Below are positions 1-11,579 of a stretch of DNA of 12,357 nt, in pieces (the stretch's first letter is position 1; every line of letters starts with the position of its first letter). Where the stretch lies: assembly GCA_003193925.1 (NCBI GenBank), contig PSPG01000017.1, forward strand, positions 1 to 12,357, given 5' to 3'. Under the pieces are notes generated by a model. The model ran no database searches. It saw nothing but the letters and a program-made list of their open reading frames with translations, and had not been told where the DNA came from. The stretch comes from Candidatus Thalassarchaeum betae (GTDB lineage Archaea; Thermoplasmatota; Poseidoniia; Poseidoniales; Thalassarchaeaceae). Made by a program: the position numbers and the translations under genes.

Positions 1-3000
1 TCGGGAGACTCGGAGGGAGGGGGTGGAGTTGGTGGCTTTCCGTCGGCGATGTCCCACAGGTCATCGATAGACGTCTCCGAGGGCGCGCTCTCAAGCTCCT
101 CTAAGATTTCCTCTGCGCGCTCGGTTTCGCCCGGGCCTGAGTCTGGGGGTTCCGGTTCGTCGGCGGCTGGCTTGGTCGGTTTGGCAGTCTTGGGATGCGC
201 CTTCCGACTCCTACTCTTTGGTGGGGCCGGATCCTTCTCATCCAGCAGCGCCCACGACTCGTTGGGTAGCTGGGGTCTGGGCTTGCGCTTGCGGCCCTTC
301 AACAGCGAGCCATCCCCAGAGGCTCCTCCGGATTTCGACAGGGCCAGCAATGCCAACATAACGATTGCAGCCACGAACAGCATCGTCAGTGCGGTGCTGC
401 TGCGGATGGTCTCGAGAATGTTAAACGGCACGTCGTCGTCTTCCAGCGCGTCGTTGCAGCCGTCTGCGTCCCTGTCATTAGAGGAGTCAGAGACCCATCC
501 GACCACTCCGGTGGGGCACAAGTCGAGTTCGTCCGGGACGCCGTCGTTGTCGTCGTCGTCATCCTCCGAGAAATCCATGCATCCGTCGTTGTCGTAATCG
601 GGCTCAATCCCGGGCAGGGGACTGAGGGGGCAGGGGTCGAGGTCGTCGGGTATGCCGTCGTTGTCGTCGTCATCGTCTGCGAGGTCGTCGGCGCAGCCAT
701 CGCCGTCGCGGTCGTTGAACGGAGTCGACACCCAGTTCGTGAGCGGGCTGTCCTCACATGAGTCCAAGTCGGAGATGATGCCGTCGTTATCGAGGTCGTC
801 ATCCTCGAGCCTGTCATCGCAGCCGTCCCTGTCGAGGTCGACGCTGGCCGCGGTGACCTCTGGGCTCCGGATACAATCGTCGTCCACGTCTAGATGGCCG
901 TCGTTGTCGTCGTCCCCGTCCTCGCTGATGTCTCGGCAGCCGTCGCCGTCCCAGTCGTTGAAGGGCGAGGAGACCCATCCCACCTCGCCGTGGGGACACT
1001 CGTCGAGGTCGTTGTGCACTCCATCGTTGTCGATGTCCTCGTCCTCCACGAAGTCCTTGCAGCCGTCGCCGTCCCAGTCCAAGGCGTCTGAGGAGACCCA
1101 GTCGATGGCCCCTACAGGGCACAGATCGTCGGCGTCGCTCACGCCATCGTTGTCGTCGTCATCATCCTCCTGCAGGTCGTGGCAGCCGTCGCCGTCGTAG
1201 TCGAAGCTTGGATCATCCCACCAGGTCACGCCTGACGGGCAGTCGTCCTCGTCGTCGAGGTACGGGTCGCCGTCGTCGTTGTCGTCCTCGTCCCAGTCTC
1301 GGCAGCCGTCGCCGTCGTGGTCCTCGGACGAGTCCCAGTGCATGGCCCCGTCTGGGCAGTCGTCGAGGTGGTTCTCCACGCCGTCGCCGTCGTTGTCGGA
1401 ATCCTCGTAGCGGTCGTCGCAGCCGTCGCCGTCGCGGTCAACCGTGTCGTTGCCCATGTAGCCGGTGGGGCACAAGTCGAGCTCGTCCGGGACGCCGTCG
1501 TTGTCGTCGTCATCGTCCTCGGTGGAGTCCCTGCAGCCGTCGCCGTCATGGTCGGTCGTCTCATCGGAGAACCAGTCGGAGTTGCCCCACTGGCAGTCGT
1601 CCTCGGCATCCGGGACGCCGTCGGCGTCGTCATCGTCCCAATCGCCCTGGTTGACCATTTCCACGTGCAACAATATGCTGGTAATGGCCAGCTCGAAGCT
1701 GGCCGATGACACTGTCACCCAGAGGTCGAACGACTGGTTCTCGTTGACCTGCCTGAGGTTGGGCGCGCGCAGGAACAGGCTGATCGAGACGGATTCGCCT
1801 TCCATCAGGCTGACTGACGGTTGGTACGTGAAGCCGTGGCCGACCGTCGACACCCAGTAATCGGGGGTCTCGCTGGCGCTGAGATGGACGGTGTCGCCAC
1901 CTCCGGGGAGGGTGACTCCGATCAGTGTCATCGCCACATTCGCAGAGGCGTCGGGAGCGAGCGTCAAGTTGTCCGTTTGGCCGGGCTCGAGGACCAGATC
2001 TATCGAATAATCGGTCTGGGTCCAGAAGCAGAGCTGGGTCTCGAGATCGTTGTCTGGATAGGAGGTGGAGCAGTCTTCCGAGGTCCACAGGACGCTCCGG
2101 TACGGCCAGTCGAAGCCCACGATGGGCGGGGCCCCTGACCTAGTCTCGCCTGAATCGACGCCCATCAGGCTGGAGGCCCCGGAGGCAAGGACCTGGGTCT
2201 CGACCAACCCGTATGCCTGGTTGAGGGTCTGATCCAGGTCCAGATCGCCGTTGGAATCGCGCTGTGGCAACTGCAAACGGGTCCATCTGAGGTCGTTGCG
2301 GTAGTTGTCGGTCTCGAACCAGGTCATATGCACCGAGTCGTCCGAGTCAGAGGTGACCGTGGGGTACGCTCCCCACGTTAGATTTGAGTCGGCAATAGCC
2401 GTGTTGAGGACAGTGGTGGTCAGGTCGAGGTCGAGGCCGTCGAACTCGCCGTCGAGGTCGCCTTCGCGGTCCAGATCGATCTGCATGTAGTGGAGCTGGG
2501 ACGGGCCCTGGCGTTCTGTGACACCGAAGCGCCCGTCCGCCCAGACTACGTGCACGTTTCCGTAGTCGTCGATGTCGACGTCTGGGCTGGAGCTCCAGCC
2601 ATCTCCGTTCGTCAGACGGGTGTCGTTGGCGATTACGAGGTTGCCGTATCCCGAGAATGGGTCTATGGACGGGCCGATGTACTCGGCATACTGGTCATTG
2701 GTCGTGTCGGTGATGCTGCCAGGGGCGCCCAGCTCCCAGGTGACGGGGGGGTTGTTGATGAACGAGTACGGGTCCATCACAGTCAGGAATATCTCGGTGG
2801 AGCCCCCTGTTGAGAGATGCAACAAGCCGGAGACCATCAACTCCAACTCGGCCGAGTTCGATGCCGATGTCGGGAAACTGTACATCTGGCCCCCCGCGTC
2901 GGTGAGTCTTGTAGTCGAGCCGTTGCAGGTCCTGATGTTCAGGCCGGTGCCGTTCGGGCACTGGGCGAGGTCCATCATGTGCGATCCGACATCGGTGGAG

Positions 3001-4421
3001 CCGGAGCCGAAGCCAGCAGCCAGGAGGGGGACTGGGATGATGCCGGCGATGACGCAGGCGTCGTGGGCCTCGTTGATGCTCTGTGTGTCGTCCGACTGCT
3101 GGGCGGGGTCGCCGCCGTAGGGGCCCTCGTCAGAGATCGGGATCATGAATTTTAGTGCGCTTGAGTTCCAGTGGTGGTCAAGCTGAGTGGGTGGGTCGCC
3201 CGGGCTGATGCCGCTGCTGTCGTGCCACGACAGGCAGGCCCATGTCGAGCCCGGGCCCCACATCTCGCTGTAGTAGCCACCGTCCATAGGCAGGTCGATT
3301 GCGCCGCCGTCGTACATTACCTCGGTGAGTTCCCTGATGCCGCCCGAATCGTCTCCGGCTGAGAGGGGGGTGGTCCGGGGCCCTTGGCTGCCGGAGCCAC
3401 CGGTCTGGTAGGCCTCTGCGCAGTTGCCGCTTGTCGCAGCGCTGGGCCAGTTGCCGCTGAGCGCGTAAAGGGTCTCCATAACGGTGATGTCGGGATACTG
3501 CAGCAGCGGCTTCAGTCCGGCGAAGTAGCCACCGCTAGAGAAATAGCCGCCATAGAAGACTACGCACATGTCGGCCCACTCCGTGTCCATCGATCCGGAG
3601 GTGTCGATTGGCATGACCATCTCGATCGCGCTGCCTCGAGTGTCCTCCCACACCACCACGACGGTGTCGTCATCTCCCACTGAGATTGCCGGATGGCCCG
3701 CTTGGGAAATGATGGGTGTCACCAGTGTATGGCCTATCATCGTCATGAACCCGGAGGAGGTGTCGAATGCAACCATGGTGTAGTAGAGGTTAGGGGTGCT
3801 GTAGTACATGTCCAGCGAATCGTAGGTGTCGACCCAGACGATGTGCGCCGCGTCGTAGGAGTCCACTGCGATATCGGGGTCGGTTCTCGTGCCTGCTCCG
3901 TCCGCCAGCACGGTGGAGGGTTGGAGCGTCATGTTGGTGATGTCGCCCGCAGAGCCGTCATGGTCGTCTAAACCGGGGTCAATCAGGACGTACCTGATCT
4001 CCGTGCCGATGGACTCCCAGACGATGTGCGCCTTGGCTTGCGAGTCGACCACCATGACCGGATTGGTGATTGTCAGAGACGAGTTCGCGGGTATTTCGGT
4101 GGTGGATATCAGTGGATGCCCCGCGAGATTGAACAGGGCGTAGTTCAACGAGCCTGAGTAGGCGTCCTCCACCCACACCACGTGCACCCTGTTCAGGTGG
4201 TCAACGGCCCCCGTGACCTCGGCCGGGTCATCCATGTTGAGATTAGAGATCAGGGTCTGTATGGTGCTGTCGTTCGCGGTGTTGTTTGCCGTGAAATGGC
4301 GCTCGCCGGGGGTGTCAAGGACGGTATGCTGAGTGATGTGAATAGGGGCTGCGATGGAAAACAGGAGAATTGCTACCAGTATCACCGATTGGCGGTACGA
4401 ATTGAATGGCCCCCTAGTCAT
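1..4421 (-). CDS. Giant secreted/anchored surface protein with propeller blades, VWA domain and TSP3 repeats (3' end outside window)
   Basis: The frame is open without a stop from the ATG at 4421 to the window edge, giving at least 1473 residues. Residues 1-26 look like a signal peptide (SVILVAILLFSIAAP core). Six blade-like motifs of the type HxVWxD lie near residues 79, 131, 191, 253, 623 and 696, suggesting a beta-propeller. Between the fourth and fifth lies a von Willebrand A-like domain with MIDAS motif DTSGS at residues 273-277. A beta-sandwich-like stretch (about 800-920) precedes ten Asp-rich TSP3 units (926-1330). A transmembrane helix at about 1343-1363 is followed by a basic, then Pro/Glu-rich tail that is probably cytoplasmic. 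TSP3 repeats bind calcium and VWA domains bind proteins through a metal, so a role in cell-surface adhesion or as a stalk is likely, but the ligand is unknown. The ATG is chosen because it places the signal peptide at the N-terminus. The C-terminus is not visible. Confidence 0.92.
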   Translation of the reverse strand, partial: MTRGPFNSYRQSVILVAILLFSIAAPIHITQHTVLDTPGERHFTANNTANDSTIQTLISNLNMDDPAEVTGAVDHLNRVHVVWVEDAYSGSLNYALFNLAGHPLISTTEIPANSSLTITNPVMVVDSQAKAHIVWESIGTEIRYVLIDPGLDDHDGSAGDITNMTLQPSTVLADGAGTRTDPDIAVDSYDAAHIVWVDTYDSLDMYYSTPNLYYTMVAFDTSSGFMTMIGHTLVTPIISQAGHPAISVGDDDTVVVVWEDTRGSAIEMVMPIDTSGSMDTEWADMCVVFYGGYFSSGGYFAGLKPLLQYPDITVMETLYALSGNWPSAATSGNCAEAYQTGGSGSQGPRTTPLSAGDDSGGIRELTEVMYDGGAIDLPMDGGYYSEMWGPGSTWACLSWHDSSGISPGDPPTQLDHHWNSSALKFMIPISDEGPYGGDPAQQSDDTQSINEAHDACVIAGIIPVPLLAAGFGSGSTDVGSHMMDLAQCPNGTGLNIRTCNGSTTRLTDAGGQMYSFPTSASNSAELELMVSGLLHLSTGGSTEIFLTVMDPYSFINNPPVTWELGAPGSITDTTNDQYAEYIGPSIDPFSGYGNLVIANDTRLTNGDGWSSSPDVDIDDYGNVHVVWADGRFGVTERQGPSQLHYMQIDLDREGDLDGEFDGLDLDLTTTVLNTAIADSNLTWGAYPTVTSDSDDSVHMTWFETDNYRNDLRWTRLQLPQRDSNGDLDLDQTLNQAYGLVETQVLASGASSLMGVDSGETRSGAPPIVGFDWPYRSVLWTSEDCSTSYPDNDLETQLCFWTQTDYSIDLVLEPGQTDNLTLAPDASANVAMTLIGVTLPGGGDTVHLSASETPDYWVSTVGHGFTYQPSVSLMEGESVSISLFLRAPNLRQVNENQSFDLWVTVSSASFELAITSILLHVEMVNQGDWDDDDADGVPDAEDDCQWGNSDWFSDETTDHDGDGCRDSTEDDDDDNDGVPDELDLCPTGYMGNDTVDRDGDGCDDRYEDSDNDGDGVENHLDDCPDGAMHWDSSEDHDGDGCRDWDEDDNDDGDPYLDDEDDCPSGVTWWDDPSFDYDGDGCHDLQEDDDDDNDGVSDADDLCPVGAIDWVSSDALDWDGDGCKDFVEDEDIDNDGVHNDLDECPHGEVGWVSSPFNDWDGDGCRDISEDGDDDNDGHLDVDDDCIRSPEVTAASVDLDRDGCDDRLEDDDLDNDGIISDLDSCEDSPLTNWVSTPFNDRDGDGCADDLADDDDDNDGIPDDLDPCPLSPLPGIEPDYDNDGCMDFSEDDDDDNDGVPDELDLCPTGVVGWVSDSSNDRDADGCNDALEDDDVPFNILETIRSSTALTMLFVAAIVMLALLALSKSGGASGDGSLLKGRKRKPRPQLPNESWALLDEKDPAPPKSRSRKAHPKTAKPTKPAADEPEPPDSGPGETERAEEILEELESAPSETSIDDLWDIADGKPPTPPPPSESP
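432..1646 (-). repeat. Ten tandem TSP3-type calcium-binding units within the surface protein
   Basis: Residues 926-1330 hold ten units of about 36-42 residues. Each begins with an acidic run of the type DDDDDNDGVPD, continues LDxCP, then a variable spacer often containing GWVS, and ends with DxDGDGCxDxxE. Each full unit carries two cysteines, one after each acidic loop, which could form a disulfide between consecutive loops. Units 2 and 10 share an identical stretch from the acidic run through DELDLCPTG, which suggests recent duplication or gene conversion. At the DNA level the plus strand reads as long gtcgtc-rich stretches, because Asp is almost always GAC. Confidence 0.93.
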
Positions 4422-6019: not shown

Positions 6020-6056
6020 TGTTTTCTGAACTTTGAGAGATTCTACAGGTGAGCGA

Positions 6057-7275
6057 ATGACAACAGTGCAATTCAATGTCGACAATCGTCAAGCTAAGCG
6101 AAATGTCGCTGTCTTGTTCTACGCACAGGCGATTCTCGGCTCGCAACAATCGATCAATATCATCCTCGGCGGGCTAGCAGGATTCGCTCTCGCCGGCAAC
6201 AAAGCATTGGCGACATTGCCGATCTCGGTCATGCTTCTCGCTTCGATGCTTTCGGCAGGTCCAGTTTCGTTATTCATGGGACGGTTTGGACGTAGGGCAG
6301 GATTTCTGCTCGGAGCAGCAGCAGGACTGCTTGGAGGAGGTTGCAGTGCATTGGCATTGTATGTCGGGCGATTCGACTTGCTTTTGCTAGGAGCGGGCTT
6401 GACTGGAATCTTCCGCTCGACCCACGGGTATTTCCGCTTCGCGGCAGCCGATACGGCTTCTGAAGAATTCAAACCGAAGGCGATTTCTCTGGTTTTGGCC
6501 GGCGGATTGCTGAGTGCATGTTCGCTCGACAACCGATGCAATAGATTCAACCCCTTATGCTGGCGCTTATCTCGCAGTAATCGCAATCAATGTGATCGGC
6601 TCACTCGGACTATTATTCCTCGATATCCCAACACCACCACGAAAAAAGAAAGGAGAAAAATCAGGTCGAGATCTCAAAGAAATCTTCACTCAACCAAAAA
6701 CGGTTGTCGCAGTTATCTGCGCCATGGTTTCCTACGCGATGATGACGCTTGTGATGACTTCTACAACGCTGGCGATGACAGCGACTGGATTCACCACCGC
6801 GGGGGCTGCAGACGTGATTCGCTGGCATATCATCGCGATGTTCGCGCCGAGTTTCTTCACCGGCGCGATAATCTCTCGAATCGGTCAATTACGGGTGATC
6901 ATGATTGGCCTTACACTACTTGGAATCGCGGCGTTCATCAGTGTCAGTGGGGATGAGGTCGAAAACTTCTACTTTGCATTAATCGCATTGGGGCTCGGAT
7001 GGAATTTCGGTTTCATCGGAGCAACAAGTCTGCTGACGACGACACACACAAGTGAGGAACAGGCGAAGGTGCAAGGACTGAATGATGTGCTGGTGTCAGG
7101 CCTCGTGACGATTGCCTCATTTGGCTCGGGCGCTATCCTGCAAATTTACGGTTGGGAATATGTGCAATATGCGATGATCCCAGCTCTTTCCTTGGCTGCC
7201 CTGGCCATTCTCTGGTTGGCGATCAAAACCAGACGTGCACGGAGCATAGAACCGAACTTCGGAGGTATGCGGTGA
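6057..7275 (+). pseudogene. MFS transporter with a frameshift near 6519-6528
   Basis: Two overlapping frames make up one Major Facilitator Superfamily protein of about 405 residues, the usual size. The first part, from the ATG at 6057, covers the N-terminal helices, including the loop motif GRFGRRAG. It stays plausible through AGGLLSA, ending at 6518. The membrane-protein pattern then continues one frame over from about 6529 (TTDAIDSTPYAGAYLAVIA) to the TGA at 7273-7275. The shift fits one inserted base or a deletion of 2 (or 14/17) bases. Related MFS proteins seem to carry a few more residues here, which favours a deletion. The original frame stays open to 6956 but becomes polar and implausible. 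GGTGAG at 6048-6053 is a close Shine-Dalgarno site supporting the start. The gene looks more A/T-rich than the polymerase gene next to it, hinting at acquisition. Sequencing error is an alternative. The substrate is unknown. Confidence 0.82.
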
Positions 7276-7362: not shown

Positions 7363-7505
7363 TCTGAACCCACAGGAACCACTACCCTCACAGGAGGCAC
7401 ATCCCTTCCTCCGTTTCAGCTATGATGGCTACCTGAATTCAATTTCACGTTAGCCTCGCCCTGCCTGCAAAGTTCATCATACCCTCTCGGTAATCTCGGT
7501 CGCCC

Positions 7506-7757
7506 ATGGGCAGGACAGTAGCGACTTGGAGGAACCGGATTGAATGCCGGGTTGAGAGGTGGACGGGTTTCCGGCGCGTGTTGAGAATGGCGGAGCGTGC
7601 CGAGTTCGATCGCATGTTGAGAGCGGCTCGCGAGCGGGCGGCGGCATGTGGGATGGTCCCCTCCTCCGACGTCTTCGAGCCGGCTGTACTAGCGATGCTG
7701 GTCGATGTCAACTCTAGGCTGACTGCCTTGGAGACTCGCGGTGACGAGGATGATTGA
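7506..7757 (+). CDS. Small helical protein coupled to the PolB2-like gene
   Basis: This 83-residue protein is rich in Arg, Ala and Glu and appears almost wholly alpha-helical, with an Arg-rich N-terminal half and a helix near the C-terminus (VLAMLVDVNSRLTALETR). It has no motif that I recognise. Evidence that it is real: it starts with ATG, its stop overlaps the polymerase start by 8 bases (ATG at 7750, TGA at 7755-7757), and the GGTGA that probably serves the polymerase lies inside its last codons, the layout of a translationally coupled pair. As I recall, archaeal PolB2 genes are often preceded by a small helical protein, so it may be a cofactor of the polymerase. That function is inference; the coding call rests on the overlap and composition. 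Confidence 0.62.
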   Translation: MGRTVATWRNRIECRVERWTGFRRVLRMAERAEFDRMLRAARERAAACGMVPSSDVFEPAVLAMLVDVNSRLTALETRGDEDD

Positions 7758-10137
7758 AGGATGGGTTCTGGACACCCATCTGGACTACGCATCGGAGCGC
7801 ATGGTACTGTGGGTTAAGAATGACGATGGCAGCGTCTCCAGCCACTCGTTCGAATGGAGCCCAGTGCTGCACGTACACGGCCAGTCGCAGCACATGGAGG
7901 AGTTGCGAAACGCACTGCTCCGTCCCGAGTACCAAGTGCCGTTCGGCAACCTGATCATCGGCCAGGAGCGTCAGCGAATTCGTCATGAGGATGCGGGACC
8001 CGTCGAGGTCCTGACCGTGGGGGTCTCTCGCCCTTCGAAGATACTCAGAGTCGCCGAGATGCTCTCTGCGAATGGGGCCTGGAGGAACTTTGAGCTGTTC
8101 TCTGTCGACCCTAAGATCGCGCAGAGATTCCTGCTCGACCTCGGAACGTTCCCGTTCGGTCGAGTGCGTGTCGAGGGGGGTGGTATCGTGCCACTCGACT
8201 CACGCACCGACGTGGATTGCCCCCTGCCACCGCTTCGTCAGGTGAAGTTGCACGTGGCATGCCATGATCTGCATGGCAAGCGGTGCGCGGGAGCCGAGAT
8301 AACGAGCGTGACCCTAATCGACATCGGCTGCATGGGATCGGAGGCCGAAGACGAGGTCTGGCACGCACGCGCGGAAGACTACGAGGAACCCGCTGCCTTC
8401 CTCGAGGCATTCGCAAGCGAGTTCGACCGCTTGGACCCGGATGTCGTGATTACGGACTACGGCGACAGCGTGGACTTCCCCGCGCTGCGAACTCTCGCCG
8501 AGAAAGAGGGTAAGCCGCTGCAGTTGAGCCGAAACGCGCACGACTGCACCCCCCGCCGCGAGGCGACCACGTCCTGGAGTTACGGCAGACTGCTGCGCTC
8601 CGACGCATATCATGCCCTCCAAGGGCGGCTGCACATCGACATGGGCACTTCGTTCATGGGCAAGGAGGGTGGCATGGAGGGTTTGTGCGAGCTCGCTCGC
8701 GTCTCCGGGCTCCCCGCCCAGGATCTCTCTAGGCTCTCCCCCGGCTCGGCCATTTCGGCTATGCAAATCCGCCAGTCGATGGAGGACGGCGTGCTGATTC
8801 CATGGAAGAAGAACCGCCCCGAGGACATGAAAACCGCCACGCAGATGCTATTCGCCGATCGGGGCGGGCTCTATCTCGACCCAAGACCGGGTGTCCACGA
8901 AGACGTATACGAACTAGACTACGCGAGCCTGTTTCCGAGCATCATCGCGACTAGGAACATCAGCCCGGAGACAATGAGTTGCGAGTGCTGTAACCCCGCT
9001 GGCACGGAGGATCGGCGCGATGGGCGCCTGCCTCTGGAGGCCGAGCGTGCCGCGAGGGAGATCGAGCGACGGTCGGAGGAGGGCGAGGTGCGCAAGCTGG
9101 TGGTCCCGGAGCTTGGTCTGCACGTCTGCACGAGGAGACATGGGTTCCTCGGTCGGGTGGTGGCTCCTATAATAGAGAGGAGGACCTACCTTAAGTCGAA
9201 GCGTAAGGAGAAGGGGGATGTCTGGGACAGGCGCCAGAACGTGCTCAAGTGGATTCTGGTCTGCTGCTTCGGATACACTGGGTACCGCAACGCGCGCTTT
9301 GGCAGGATTGAGTGCCACGAGGCGATTTGCGCATGGTCACGCGACATACTGCTAGATACCATCGAGGAGGCCGAACTCGATGGCTGGGAGTGCCTGCACG
9401 CAATCGTCGACTCGATATGGATCGCCGACACGCGGGGCCGCAACGAGGAGGAGAGGGCAGAGTCAATCTCCCGCCTGATCTCACGCATCGAGGCGAGGAT
9501 CGGCATCCCGCTGGAGCTTGAGGAGGTCTACGAGTGGATCGCCTTCGTCCCAAACCGTACCACCGGCGTGGGCGCCCTAACGAAGTACTTCGCTTACGGG
9601 CGCGAGGGCTGGAAGGTGAGGGGGATCGAGCTGCGGCAGCACTCCACCTGCAATTGGGTCCGCGACCTGCAGGAGTCGATCATGGAGATCCTGCGACAGG
9701 ACCCGCCCGGAGAGGCCCCCGCGAGGGGCGTCGAGCACCTGCACTACGAGCTGGCCCGCCTCCGAGGGGGCAAGGTCCCCCTGGCTGACTTGGTGGTGGG
9801 GCGTCGCGTCAGGAACGAGGTCGGCACCCATCGCGTCCTCAACCTCACGGCCGCTGCACTGTTGCGAGAACGGAGCTTGGGGCAGCGCACGCCACCCGGG
9901 CGCAAGGTGCGCTTCGCCGTGGTCGGCTGGGAGCGTCCCGACGCTGCGGATAGAATCAGGATGGAGTCTGAGGTCGAGGCGAGGACCCCCCCGACCTCCG
10001 GGCAGAGTGGCGACTGCGACTTCTACGAGCCCCTCGCCATCCGAGCCGCAACGGCGCTTCTAGCGCCGTTCGGCTGGTCCGAGGATGGGATCAGGGGGGG
10101 CAGGTCAGTGCAGACCTCACTGACGATGTGGGCGTGA
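7750..10137 (+). CDS. PolB2-like divergent family B DNA polymerase
   Basis: This 795-residue protein has the family B polymerase order: N-terminal domain, exonuclease-like domain, palm, fingers and thumb. Motif A is clear as DYASLFPSII, with catalytic D390. Motif B is KWILVCCFGYTGY, with K500 and F507-G508. Motif C reads IVDSIW where replicative enzymes have DTDS: the second Asp (D554) is kept and the first is replaced by Ile. In the exonuclease domain the Exo I DxE is not visible (ACHDLHG near 170-176) and the Exo II Asn is replaced (YGDSVDF), so proofreading is probably lost. These changes place it with archaeal PolB2 (Dpo2-type), linked to damage-induced, error-prone synthesis, rather than with replicative PolB. 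A conserved-looking cysteine cluster (CECC near 411-414, C460) follows motif A. The ATG at 7750 is preferred to a GTG at 7741, because GGTGA at 7740-7744 then has normal spacing. The 3' end overlaps the opposing RadA-like gene. Confidence 0.85.
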   Translation: MIEGWVLDTHLDYASERMVLWVKNDDGSVSSHSFEWSPVLHVHGQSQHMEELRNALLRPEYQVPFGNLIIGQERQRIRHEDAGPVEVLTVGVSRPSKILRVAEMLSANGAWRNFELFSVDPKIAQRFLLDLGTFPFGRVRVEGGGIVPLDSRTDVDCPLPPLRQVKLHVACHDLHGKRCAGAEITSVTLIDIGCMGSEAEDEVWHARAEDYEEPAAFLEAFASEFDRLDPDVVITDYGDSVDFPALRTLAEKEGKPLQLSRNAHDCTPRREATTSWSYGRLLRSDAYHALQGRLHIDMGTSFMGKEGGMEGLCELARVSGLPAQDLSRLSPGSAISAMQIRQSMEDGVLIPWKKNRPEDMKTATQMLFADRGGLYLDPRPGVHEDVYELDYASLFPSIIATRNISPETMSCECCNPAGTEDRRDGRLPLEAERAAREIERRSEEGEVRKLVVPELGLHVCTRRHGFLGRVVAPIIERRTYLKSKRKEKGDVWDRRQNVLKWILVCCFGYTGYRNARFGRIECHEAICAWSRDILLDTIEEAELDGWECLHAIVDSIWIADTRGRNEEERAESISRLISRIEARIGIPLELEEVYEWIAFVPNRTTGVGALTKYFAYGREGWKVRGIELRQHSTCNWVRDLQESIMEILRQDPPGEAPARGVEHLHYELARLRGGKVPLADLVVGRRVRNEVGTHRVLNLTAAALLRERSLGQRTPPGRKVRFAVVGWERPDAADRIRMESEVEARTPPTSGQSGDCDFYEPLAIRAATALLAPFGWSEDGIRGGRSVQTSLTMWA

Positions 10138-10853
10138 GGCCGGAATTCAAGCAGGGAGGTCTGGCCCTCGGCGAGCTCCGCCCATGGGACTGTCAGGCCA
10201 ATCGAGGCCAGATGCAGTAGGGATGTCGACCTCCCCCCTCGCCTCCCGCCCCGTCCGGCTCTGAATGCCCTCAGACAATCGTCTGCGGCATGCTCTAGGT
10301 TCGCCCGCAGGGCTTTCGGCAGGATCGGAGAGGTTCGTCGGCGTGTGGTGATGACCACCAGCGAGTCGGACGTCTCGGCAGTCGTGCGCAGGCCCTCCAG
10401 TGTCTTGCGGAGGAGCGCTCTGCCCTCGGCCCGGTTGATCTGTGGGTCTGCGAACATCCGCGCTAGGTCGGAGGCTACGACGAGCCGTCCTCCGGAGAGG
10501 CGTTCTGGAGGTGATTCCTCCGTTGCCTCGGCTGCCAGTCGCTCGACGATGGCCGTGGTCTGGTGTGCCGTGAAACCCCTGCACGCGTGCAGTCTGTCCA
10601 TGGCATCGCCAGGGCAGTCGCGCCAGAGTAGGAGCGAGAGGATGTCGGAGGGGTCGAACCTCATCCCTCCGTCTATCCAGTGAACGGGCCTGCCCTCGGC
10701 CAGCTCGTCGCAGACCATGCCATGCACGAGTGGCATCATCTCCCTCCTCTCCTGCTCGAGCAGGAGCAGAGTCCCGGTCCTCGGGCGGGGGAGTTGCAGA
10801 TCCAACAAGCGGTCCCCCCACGATATCCCGTGTCGTTCGGAAGCGGTAGCCAC
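10023..10853 (-). CDS. RadA/RecA-fold protein with degenerate Walker A (PolB2-associated type)
   Basis: This 276-residue protein follows the outline of the RecA/RadA ATPase core. A strand-turn-helix sits where Walker A belongs (TGTLLLLEQERREMM, residues 26-40), then VHWIDGGMRFDP (57-68), a LHACRGF strand (88-94), a Walker B-like strand LVVASDL (124-130), and a helix plus strand ending SLVVITTRRR (164-173). The expected GxxxxGK(T/S) loop is absent, so ATP is probably not hydrolysed. That recalls the inactive RecA-family partner reported beside archaeal PolB2 and the ImuA/SulA-like partner in bacterial mutagenesis cassettes. The start is a GTG at 10853; a stop lies two codons upstream in frame and the next ATG would remove the first strand. 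Residues from about 239 to the end are encoded within the overlap with the polymerase gene. The fold call is by eye from motif order. Confidence 0.65.
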   Translation of the reverse strand: MATASERHGISWGDRLLDLQLPRPRTGTLLLLEQERREMMPLVHGMVCDELAEGRPVHWIDGGMRFDPSDILSLLLWRDCPGDAMDRLHACRGFTAHQTTAIVERLAAEATEESPPERLSGGRLVVASDLARMFADPQINRAEGRALLRKTLEGLRTTAETSDSLVVITTRRRTSPILPKALRANLEHAADDCLRAFRAGRGGRRGGRSTSLLHLASIGLTVPWAELAEGQTSLLEFRPHAHIVSEVCTDLPPLIPSSDQPNGARSAVAARMARGS

Positions 10854-10943
10854 GGGCTATCGACTCGGCTTTCCATTTAGAGTGAGTCCAAGAGGCGGGC
10901 AGGACGTCTGAAAGTGAAAATAGTGGGAGAAGCTTCGGGGAGC
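10854..10943. promoter_or_regulatory. Divergent promoter region between the RadA-like and SRAP genes
   Basis: These 90 bases separate two start codons on opposite strands, so both promoters must fit here or inside the genes. On the minus strand CTCTAAATGG (about 10873-10882) lies 20-30 bases before the GTG at 10853. On the plus strand GAAAATAG (about 10916-10923) lies about 25 bases before the ATG at 10944. Both spacings suit leaderless archaeal transcription. A short inverted pair, GACTC (10862-10866) and GAGTC (10884-10888), flanks the minus-strand box and could be an operator, but five bases is weak. Shared control of two damage-response genes is plausible. Confidence 0.38.
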
Positions 10944-11579
10944 ATGTGCGGGCGTTTTGCGTTGGGCGCTGACCCAGAGTTGGTCGCACTTGTCTTCGAT
11001 GCCAAACTCGTCGCCCTACCTGTCCGTCCTAGTTGGAACATCGCACCAACGGATCCCGCCAACATCGTATACGACGATGGCGAGGGGAAGGTAATCGGTC
11101 CGATGCGCTGGGGCTTCGACCTCAGCAGCAGCCGGAAGGCGTTCAACGCCCGTCTGGAGACGATTCTGGACAAGTGGCGCTTCAAGAGGTCCGCGCAGTG
11201 GCACAGGTGCTTAGTCCCGGCCACGGGTTGGTACGAGTGGACGAAGTCCGAGGACGGCGGCAGGGACCCTCACTTCCTCACTTCGCCCGAGTCCGACTTG
11301 ATTGCCCTCGGTGGTCTATGGGAGAAGGACGCCGACGATGCCCGATTCACCATCATCACGAGGCCCGCCCTCGACGGCTTGCAGCACCTTCACGATCGGA
11401 TGCCTTTGGTCCTCCCCTCTGATAAGTGGGATATCTGGCTCAACCCCGACGGTTCTGAGGTTGCCGGAGATGAAAGTGTAAAGGTGGCTACCGATCGAAT
11501 CAATTTCTCCTATCACAGGGTTTCAAGGGAGGTGAACAACTCTCTCTCCGAGGGACCTGAGCTCGTGGATTCAATCTGA
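10944..11579 (+). CDS. SRAP-family abasic-site crosslinking protein (HMCES/YedK type)
   Basis: This 211-residue protein is a SOS-response-associated peptidase (SRAP) family member. These proteins bind abasic sites in single-stranded DNA and form a stable thiazolidine crosslink through an N-terminal cysteine, shielding the lesion. All expected active-site residues are present: Cys2 (MCGRF), Asn68 and Arg70 in FNARLET, Glu98 in GWYEW, and His150 in HLHDRMP. The ATG at 10944 is fixed by the chemistry, because methionine removal must expose Cys2; the in-frame GTG at 10914 would bury it behind ten residues and would not work. The length is close to YedK (about 222). It is divergent from the RadA-like gene and convergent with the MarC-family gene. 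Its place next to a PolB2-type polymerase parallels bacterial SRAP genes near error-prone polymerases. Confidence 0.95.
   Translation: MCGRFALGADPELVALVFDAKLVALPVRPSWNIAPTDPANIVYDDGEGKVIGPMRWGFDLSSSRKAFNARLETILDKWRFKRSAQWHRCLVPATGWYEWTKSEDGGRDPHFLTSPESDLIALGGLWEKDADDARFTIITRPALDGLQHLHDRMPLVLPSDKWDIWLNPDGSEVAGDESVKVATDRINFSYHRVSREVNNSLSEGPELVDSI

Follow-up and report, generated by a model that had tools for sequence, protein, structure and literature searches.

A Poseidoniales PolB2 mutasome locus with a convergent layout, an adjoining SRAP gene and a putative shared damage-response operator

The archaeon Candidatus Thalassarchaeum betae is a free-living ocean organism whose 1.48-Mb genome (92% complete) includes a 12,357-nucleotide stretch, contig C13 in our set and hereafter the window. 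Positions 7506-11579 of the window encode the small protein PPB2, the family B DNA polymerase PolB2, the RadA-fold protein iRadA and an SRAP protein. Together, PolB2, PPB2 and iRadA make up the published "PolB2 mutasome," and SRAP is named among its enriched neighbors in the text of PMC11791011. Since the identities of all four parts match, we identify the locus as this mutasome with SRAP added. We consider it likely that the locus is a translesion-synthesis mutasome that was rearranged in Poseidoniales, adjoins SRAP and is damage-induced and co-regulated through a shared operator, with its regulation and biochemistry being predicted. The core three-gene set is not new, since that text already describes it. 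What is new in this analysis is the convergent layout, a slot behind iRadA that holds SRAP or a Y-family polymerase, and a shared 11-bp element; the layout is new relative to the text of PMC11791011 and may already be listed in its gene-order supplements.

We compared the window with Poseidoniales (marine group II) genomes, either metagenome-assembled or from single cells, using 36 loci from its own family, Thalassarchaeaceae, and 45 from the sister family, Poseidoniaceae (81 Poseidoniales loci), plus a sample of 20 loci from other families of Thermoplasmatota. We also surveyed 118 Thalassarchaeaceae genomes, with E < 1e-60 as the cutoff for a PolB2 relative. The genomes are incomplete, and kinship among the relatives inflates counts. 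A first-pass annotation of the window had described four adjacent genes, for a small helical protein, a divergent family B polymerase, a RecA-fold protein lacking Walker A and SRAP, as a damage-tolerance locus of the PolB2 type. We found all four genes, with those for PolB2, PPB2 and iRadA adjacent as in the PolB2 mutasome, and the type of locus was borne out by the polymerase tree and by gene co-occurrence. In a co-occurrence check set beforehand, PPB2, PolB2 and iRadA were found together in nearly every locus. In the phylogeny, the window polymerase clustered with PolB2s from canonical mutasome operons and apart from eight PolB3-like enzymes of the family (100/100; PolB1 not included).

The window PolB2 matches Pfam DNA_pol_B (E 5e-18) and retains motif A, DYASLFPSI, while its motif C reads IVD instead of DxD; AIVD is invariant over 19 aligned PolB2 rows, whereas the family's PolB3-like enzymes retain DTD. 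The text of PMC11791011 describes replacement of the first Asp of DxD in most PolB2 mutasome members. Within ExoII, the Asn is replaced and the Asp retained (DYGDSVD versus YNGDSFD); the alignment of ExoI and ExoIII was unreliable. The C-terminus of PolB2, QTSLTMWA, resembles a PCNA-interacting peptide (PIP) and aligns with the QTGLTAW end of the Deep Vent polymerase, and the pattern Q..[LIVM]..[FWY] occurs within the last 25 amino acids (aa) of 28 of the 34 Thalassarchaeaceae PolB2s, compared with 1.8% of 25-aa segments. According to the text of PMC11791011 and its references, PolB2 of Sulfolobus is induced by damage and extends primer ends that are mismatched or contain lesions. Since we found no Y-family polymerase in the window genome at its 92% completeness, PolB2 is probably the host's main bypass polymerase. 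One related copy of PolB2 (L045 and L094; G036 C1) is broken over two frames and is either decaying or affected by a sequence error.

The most likely start of PolB2 is ATG 7750, given that its relatives begin M-x-EGW; this start overlaps the PPB2 stop within ATGATTGA, and the two genes are coupled. PPB2 begins with MGRT, a hallmark of this protein in the text of PMC11791011. GRT is invariant across 15 aligned PPB2 rows, three of them from other Thermoplasmatota families, and the MGRT start is kept in Thalassarchaeaceae relatives and in other Thermoplasmatota, with several Poseidoniaceae copies reading MGRS. The AlphaFold2 (AF2) model of PPB2 consists of three helices (predicted local distance difference test score, pLDDT, 84.7); a Foldseek search with this model did not reproduce the sigma-factor-like fold reported in that text.

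iRadA has no Pfam match on its own. Its profile matches RadA/Rad51 in the PDB (1e-12), its comparison with the genome's own RadA gave an hhalign value of 97.5%, and its AF2 model (pLDDT 84.7) matches RadA/Rad51/RecA folds at about 1e-11. The window protein has no Walker A motif. We conclude that iRadA has a RadA core without the ATPase residues, as a PolB2 mutasome requires; a missing ATPase site belongs to the definition of iRadA in the text of PMC11791011. Motifs of the QTSLLEFR type, seen near the end of the window protein, are conserved at the extreme C-terminus of iRadA in other Thermoplasmatota, and the pattern is present in 22 of 34 Thalassarchaeaceae copies. Of the Poseidoniaceae iRadAs, 22 of 44 have GxxxxGK[ST], a Walker A motif, where RadA has it, and a Walker B-like Asp is retained in nearly all, whereas the RadA catalytic Glu is gone (examples from this family are L119:8389-9138, L136:8468-9241 and L112:8429-9253).

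iRadA lies opposite PolB2, tail to tail, in all 81 Poseidoniales loci, at a distance of 2 kb in one Poseidoniaceae locus. The 20 loci from other Thermoplasmatota mostly read iRadA>PPB2>PolB2 in one direction; in L166, iRadA follows PolB2 co-directionally, and in a few of the 20 we did not find iRadA. A single co-directional operon, which is usual but not required for a PolB2 mutasome, is thus found neither in the window nor across Poseidoniales. The convergent order, which the first-pass annotation thought might be specific to this lineage, is real but is not confined to the species, since the whole order has it. The most economical explanation is that iRadA was inverted and moved once in the Poseidoniales ancestor, after which the Thalassarchaeaceae iRadA frame extended into polB2 antisense until it was stopped by an [FYH]-Y dipeptide of PolB2. 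This layout suggests that a mutasome can be co-regulated without a single operon.

The resulting overlap of iRadA and polB2 is present in 36/36 Thalassarchaeaceae loci, in identical phase throughout. Canonical iRadAs end just past a QxxLxxF motif; in the window this motif ends exactly at the polB2 stop codon, and the last 38 iRadA residues are therefore polB2 antisense. The overlap could itself be a regulator, with convergent transcription or a functional iRadA tail setting the balance between PolB2 and iRadA, and its constancy in presence and phase would agree with this. However, inspection of the phase revealed that the wobble positions of both genes pair, so conservation of the tail follows from that of PolB2, and the iRadA stop usually lies opposite the [FYH]-Y dipeptide, which dictates it. 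The relatives L046 and L048 also have a far shorter tail, and Poseidoniaceae mostly differ in extent and phase, with little or no overlap (median 26 nucleotides [nt]). We consider a regulatory overlap distinctly unlikely. Selection on the antisense tail was also rejected, by argument from phase, since reading phase and PolB2 conservation account for it.

We place the start of SRAP at ATG 10944 rather than GTG 10914 because Met1 has to be followed by Cys2 and the proteins of relatives begin MCGRF. Members of the SRAP family crosslink abasic sites, and the roles of their Cys, Asn, Glu and His residues are known from YedK and HMCES. The window protein matches Pfam SRAP at 9e-49 over 199 aa and YedK and HMCES chains in the PDB; like these, it is a full-length domain, with Cys2, Asn68, Glu98 and His150 all in place. 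The protein itself is ordinary, and its distinctive feature is its position next to iRadA. Among the 118 surveyed genomes, SRAP is present in 6, in 6/6 directly behind iRadA, and a PolB2 relative in 31. All six SRAP genomes fall among these 31, for which the hypergeometric chance is about 2e-4 (a value that ignores kinship), and the adjacency is additional. The SRAP loci are deep family branches on the PolB2 tree and span four genera, a pattern consistent with a single early gain followed by several losses; the SRAP tree weakly backs a single origin. The first-pass suggestion that the addition of SRAP may be lineage-specific needs correcting: this kind of link is already known from the text of PMC11791011, which names SRAP as an enriched neighbor, and it is not confined to the species, being present with constant adjacency in these six family genomes.

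Poseidoniaceae SRAP is located elsewhere, such as about 50 kb from PolB2 in G119, and in 23 Poseidoniaceae loci among L112-L158 (for example, L146:9295-10434) the slot behind iRadA holds a protein of one family, the tested member of which is a polymerase of the Y family (IMS, IMS_C). Y-family genes of Thalassarchaeaceae were found only in a genus without full PolB2. That the two sister families fill this fixed slot with SRAP and a Y-family polymerase, respectively, suggests a role in damage tolerance common to both. It is possible, though we lean against it, that the locus is a plain PolB2 mutasome in which SRAP is incidental, acting independently on abasic sites and staying by iRadA through scarce rearrangement. 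That just 6 of the 31 PolB2-bearing family genomes carry SRAP, and that the Poseidoniaceae gene lies away from PolB2, would agree with this. On the other hand, SRAP is never away from iRadA in Thalassarchaeaceae, the slot is kept in four genera on deep PolB2 branches, and the short intergene before SRAP also holds the iRadA promoter with its operator. SRAP might instead be a structural subunit of the polymerase complex, like the SRAP-like proteins proposed to be UmuD-like partners of bacterial PolY, and not an abasic-site shield. SRAP-like PolY-binding subunits have been proposed in bacteria (PMC12926913), providing a precedent, and SRAP adjoins iRadA in all six carriers, but its crosslinking residues are intact and, since most PolB2 loci manage without it, it is not an obligate subunit; we regard this role as very improbable. 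In one locus from another Thermoplasmatota family (L164:8873-9652), SRAP immediately follows PolB2 within a co-directional operon of the canonical type.

Our preferred reading, a damage-induced mutasome adjoining SRAP, draws on an 11-bp element, TTTCACTTTCA, of which a perfect copy lies between iRadA and SRAP. This element, which the first-pass annotation does not mention, is the likely route of co-regulation. Upstream of PPB2 in relatives, a repeated TTTCAC element lies roughly 60-70 nt from the start codon, and a degenerate copy in the window, AATTTCACGTTAGCC, occupies the same position. We found 33 copies of TTTCACTTTCA in 990 kb of locus sequence versus about 0.5 expected at even base composition, and 31 of them sit at the convergent units (17 at PPB2 and 14 at iRadA, on its own strand); these counts are not independent, because many loci are close relatives. 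A matrix trained on Poseidoniaceae detected the element at Thalassarchaeaceae PPB2 genes, 88% of which exceeded the 95% level for random windows, and at 43% of their iRadA genes. ANTTTC occurred at -90 to -45 in 49 of 64 PPB2 upstream regions versus 4.5 expected from mononucleotide shuffles. We saw no consistent tandem form of the element before the canonical operons of other Thermoplasmatota. In Sulfolobus, ANTTTC is the DNA-damage response element bound by Orc1-2 (PMC9738581). The Poseidoniales element resembles it in containing ANTTTC and lying upstream of damage-tolerance genes, but its form (TTTCACTTTCA) is longer and tandem, comes from another phylum and has a predicted role in induction. 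By analogy, the two may belong to the same system.

Perfect copies of TTTCACTTTCA number 2-16 per genome. The window genome has two, located in the iRadA/SRAP and radA/tRNA-Met intergenes, plus a near-perfect tandem copy ahead of one conserved small protein. Other intergenic copies lie before a beta-propeller-like protein in six genomes, before small proteins, before Hel308 helicase in one genome and an SSB-like (single-stranded DNA-binding) protein in one genome (spacing 60-76 nt), and, in reverse orientation, beside radA in several genomes; the inspected sites inside coding sequence are probably due to chance. This list comes from sites inspected after discovery of the element, with no preset test. 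Whether TTTCACTTTCA, with its ANTTTC core, defines a Poseidoniales SOS-like DNA-damage regulon of the PolB2 mutasome, SRAP or the Y-family polymerase, Hel308, the SSB-like protein, radA and small proteins is, in our judgment, an even call; if it does, damage elements of the Sulfolobus type would be widespread in archaea. Alternatively, the element could be an ordinary core-promoter feature, uninformative on the damage response: 60-76 nt before start codons is a plausible promoter position, and a reversed-pattern control likewise gave a few matches per genome. We find this unlikely, since perfect copies are so few; in addition, all but 2 of the 33 copies in the locus set are at PPB2 or iRadA, and DNA-repair genes recur among the inspected intergenic sites. 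The small protein following the tandem operator is about 90-103 aa long (YRKR..P.RIV.L..LR.TN) and also occurs in a genome without PolB2, and the beta-propeller-like protein (about 189 aa) follows a perfect copy in both families (L222, L223, L237, L241, L243 and L247).

Several observations weigh against a damage-induced, co-regulated mutasome with SRAP. The PPB2 operator copy in the window is weak (p = 0.09 per 110-nt window), a clear operator copy accompanies under half of the iRadA genes in Thalassarchaeaceae, and SRAP is missing from most of the family's PolB2 loci. Full PolB2 and SRAP are also absent from all 12 other genomes of the genus (G009, G020, G030 and nine more), and the unit is therefore dispensable. 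These 12 genomes without PolB2 raised the suspicion that the cassette was horizontally transferred into the host species, which we rejected because the PolB2 of the window falls within the tree of its family. The branching is vertical, and repeated loss in the genus is likely. An empty site could not be demonstrated, as the MarC homologues of the genus have no adjoining MFS gene.

In the mechanism we propose, DNA damage would activate the element-bearing genes, possibly through a candidate Orc1-2-like factor; PPB2, iRadA and PolB2 would assemble as in the published heteropentameric model (PMC11791011), and PolB2 and iRadA would contact PCNA through their C-terminal QxxLxx[FW] motifs. PolB2, presumably with little or no proofreading, would extend past lesions, while SRAP would trap abasic sites on the same single-stranded DNA. 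We infer the element-driven induction, the complex assembly and this division of labor. If true, a conserved element in abundant ocean archaea would tie genes for recombination, a helicase and single-stranded DNA binding to a bypass polymerase complex, which would open damage sensing and response in archaea beyond Sulfolobales to direct tests.

The window locus resembles the PolB2 mutasome (Sulfolobus Dpo2; PMC11791011, PMC4104785) in its three proteins, MGRT arm and degraded DxD and, going by the text of PMC11791011, in its RadA-like partner without an ATPase site, QxxLxx[FW] tails and nearby SRAP. It differs in that iRadA is convergent with and overlaps polB2, whereas the published form is co-directional; in PIP-like motifs in both PolB2 and iRadA, which that text calls rare; and in the fixed Poseidoniales slot for SRAP or a Y-family polymerase, with a shared operator at both units. 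Bacterial Pol V (UmuD'2C-RecA) and ImuA-ImuB-DnaE2 work alike in combining a bypass polymerase, a RecA-family relative and a small subunit, as argued in the same text, but they are not homologous overall; here the polymerase is of the B family, there is no LexA and induction is only predicted.

Table 1. Features of the locus and sites of the 11-bp element (window positions unless a locus or contig is given)
Feature	Position	Strand	Basis or remark
Degenerate operator copy, AATTTCACGTTAGCC	7441..7455	+	TTTCAC begins 63 nt before the PPB2 ATG
PPB2 (arCOG07300-like), small three-helix protein, MGRT start	7506..7757	+	Alignment, AF2 model
PolB2 DNA polymerase	7750..10137	+	Pfam DNA_pol_B, alignment, trees; open reading frame could begin at GTG 7741
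PIP-like C-terminus of PolB2, QTSLTMWA	10111..10134	+	Pattern count, alignment
iRadA/polB2 tail-to-tail overlap, 115 nt	10023..10137	both	Locus comparison
iRadA, RadA-fold protein without Walker A, 276 aa	10023..10853	- (start 10853)	Profile, structure and motif comparisons
PIP-like motif of iRadA, QTSLLEFR	10140..10163	-	Directly before the antisense tail
Perfect operator copy, TTTCACTTTCA	10909..10919	-	Upstream of both genes, 66 nt from the iRadA start and 25 nt from the SRAP ATG; p = 2.5e-4 per window
SRAP protein	10944..11579	+	Divergent from iRadA; Pfam SRAP
Small-protein operator sites	G000 C16:48168-48184 (L275, L276); L213, L217, L219, L220		

The neighboring MarC, TauE, GNAT and MFS genes were rejected as members of the unit, being in none of the related loci (TauE and GNAT were checked in the Thalassarchaeaceae locus set). 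A viral origin was also rejected: 2.9 million viral contigs gave one weak match, and polymerases of Leptospira phages are 30% identical. In four such phage records (KF114879.1, KX656785.1, KF114880.1 and KF114878.1), a family B polymerase aligns with 96% of the window PolB2 and is 28-30% identical to it. The MFS transporter gene at 6033-7275 of the window is split over two frames by a frameshift near 6514 and is either a pseudogene or a sequence error. At 3-4421 on the minus strand, the window encodes a protein of more than 1473 aa, truncated by the contig end, that carries numerous Asp-rich DxDGDG repeats as well as a membrane segment.

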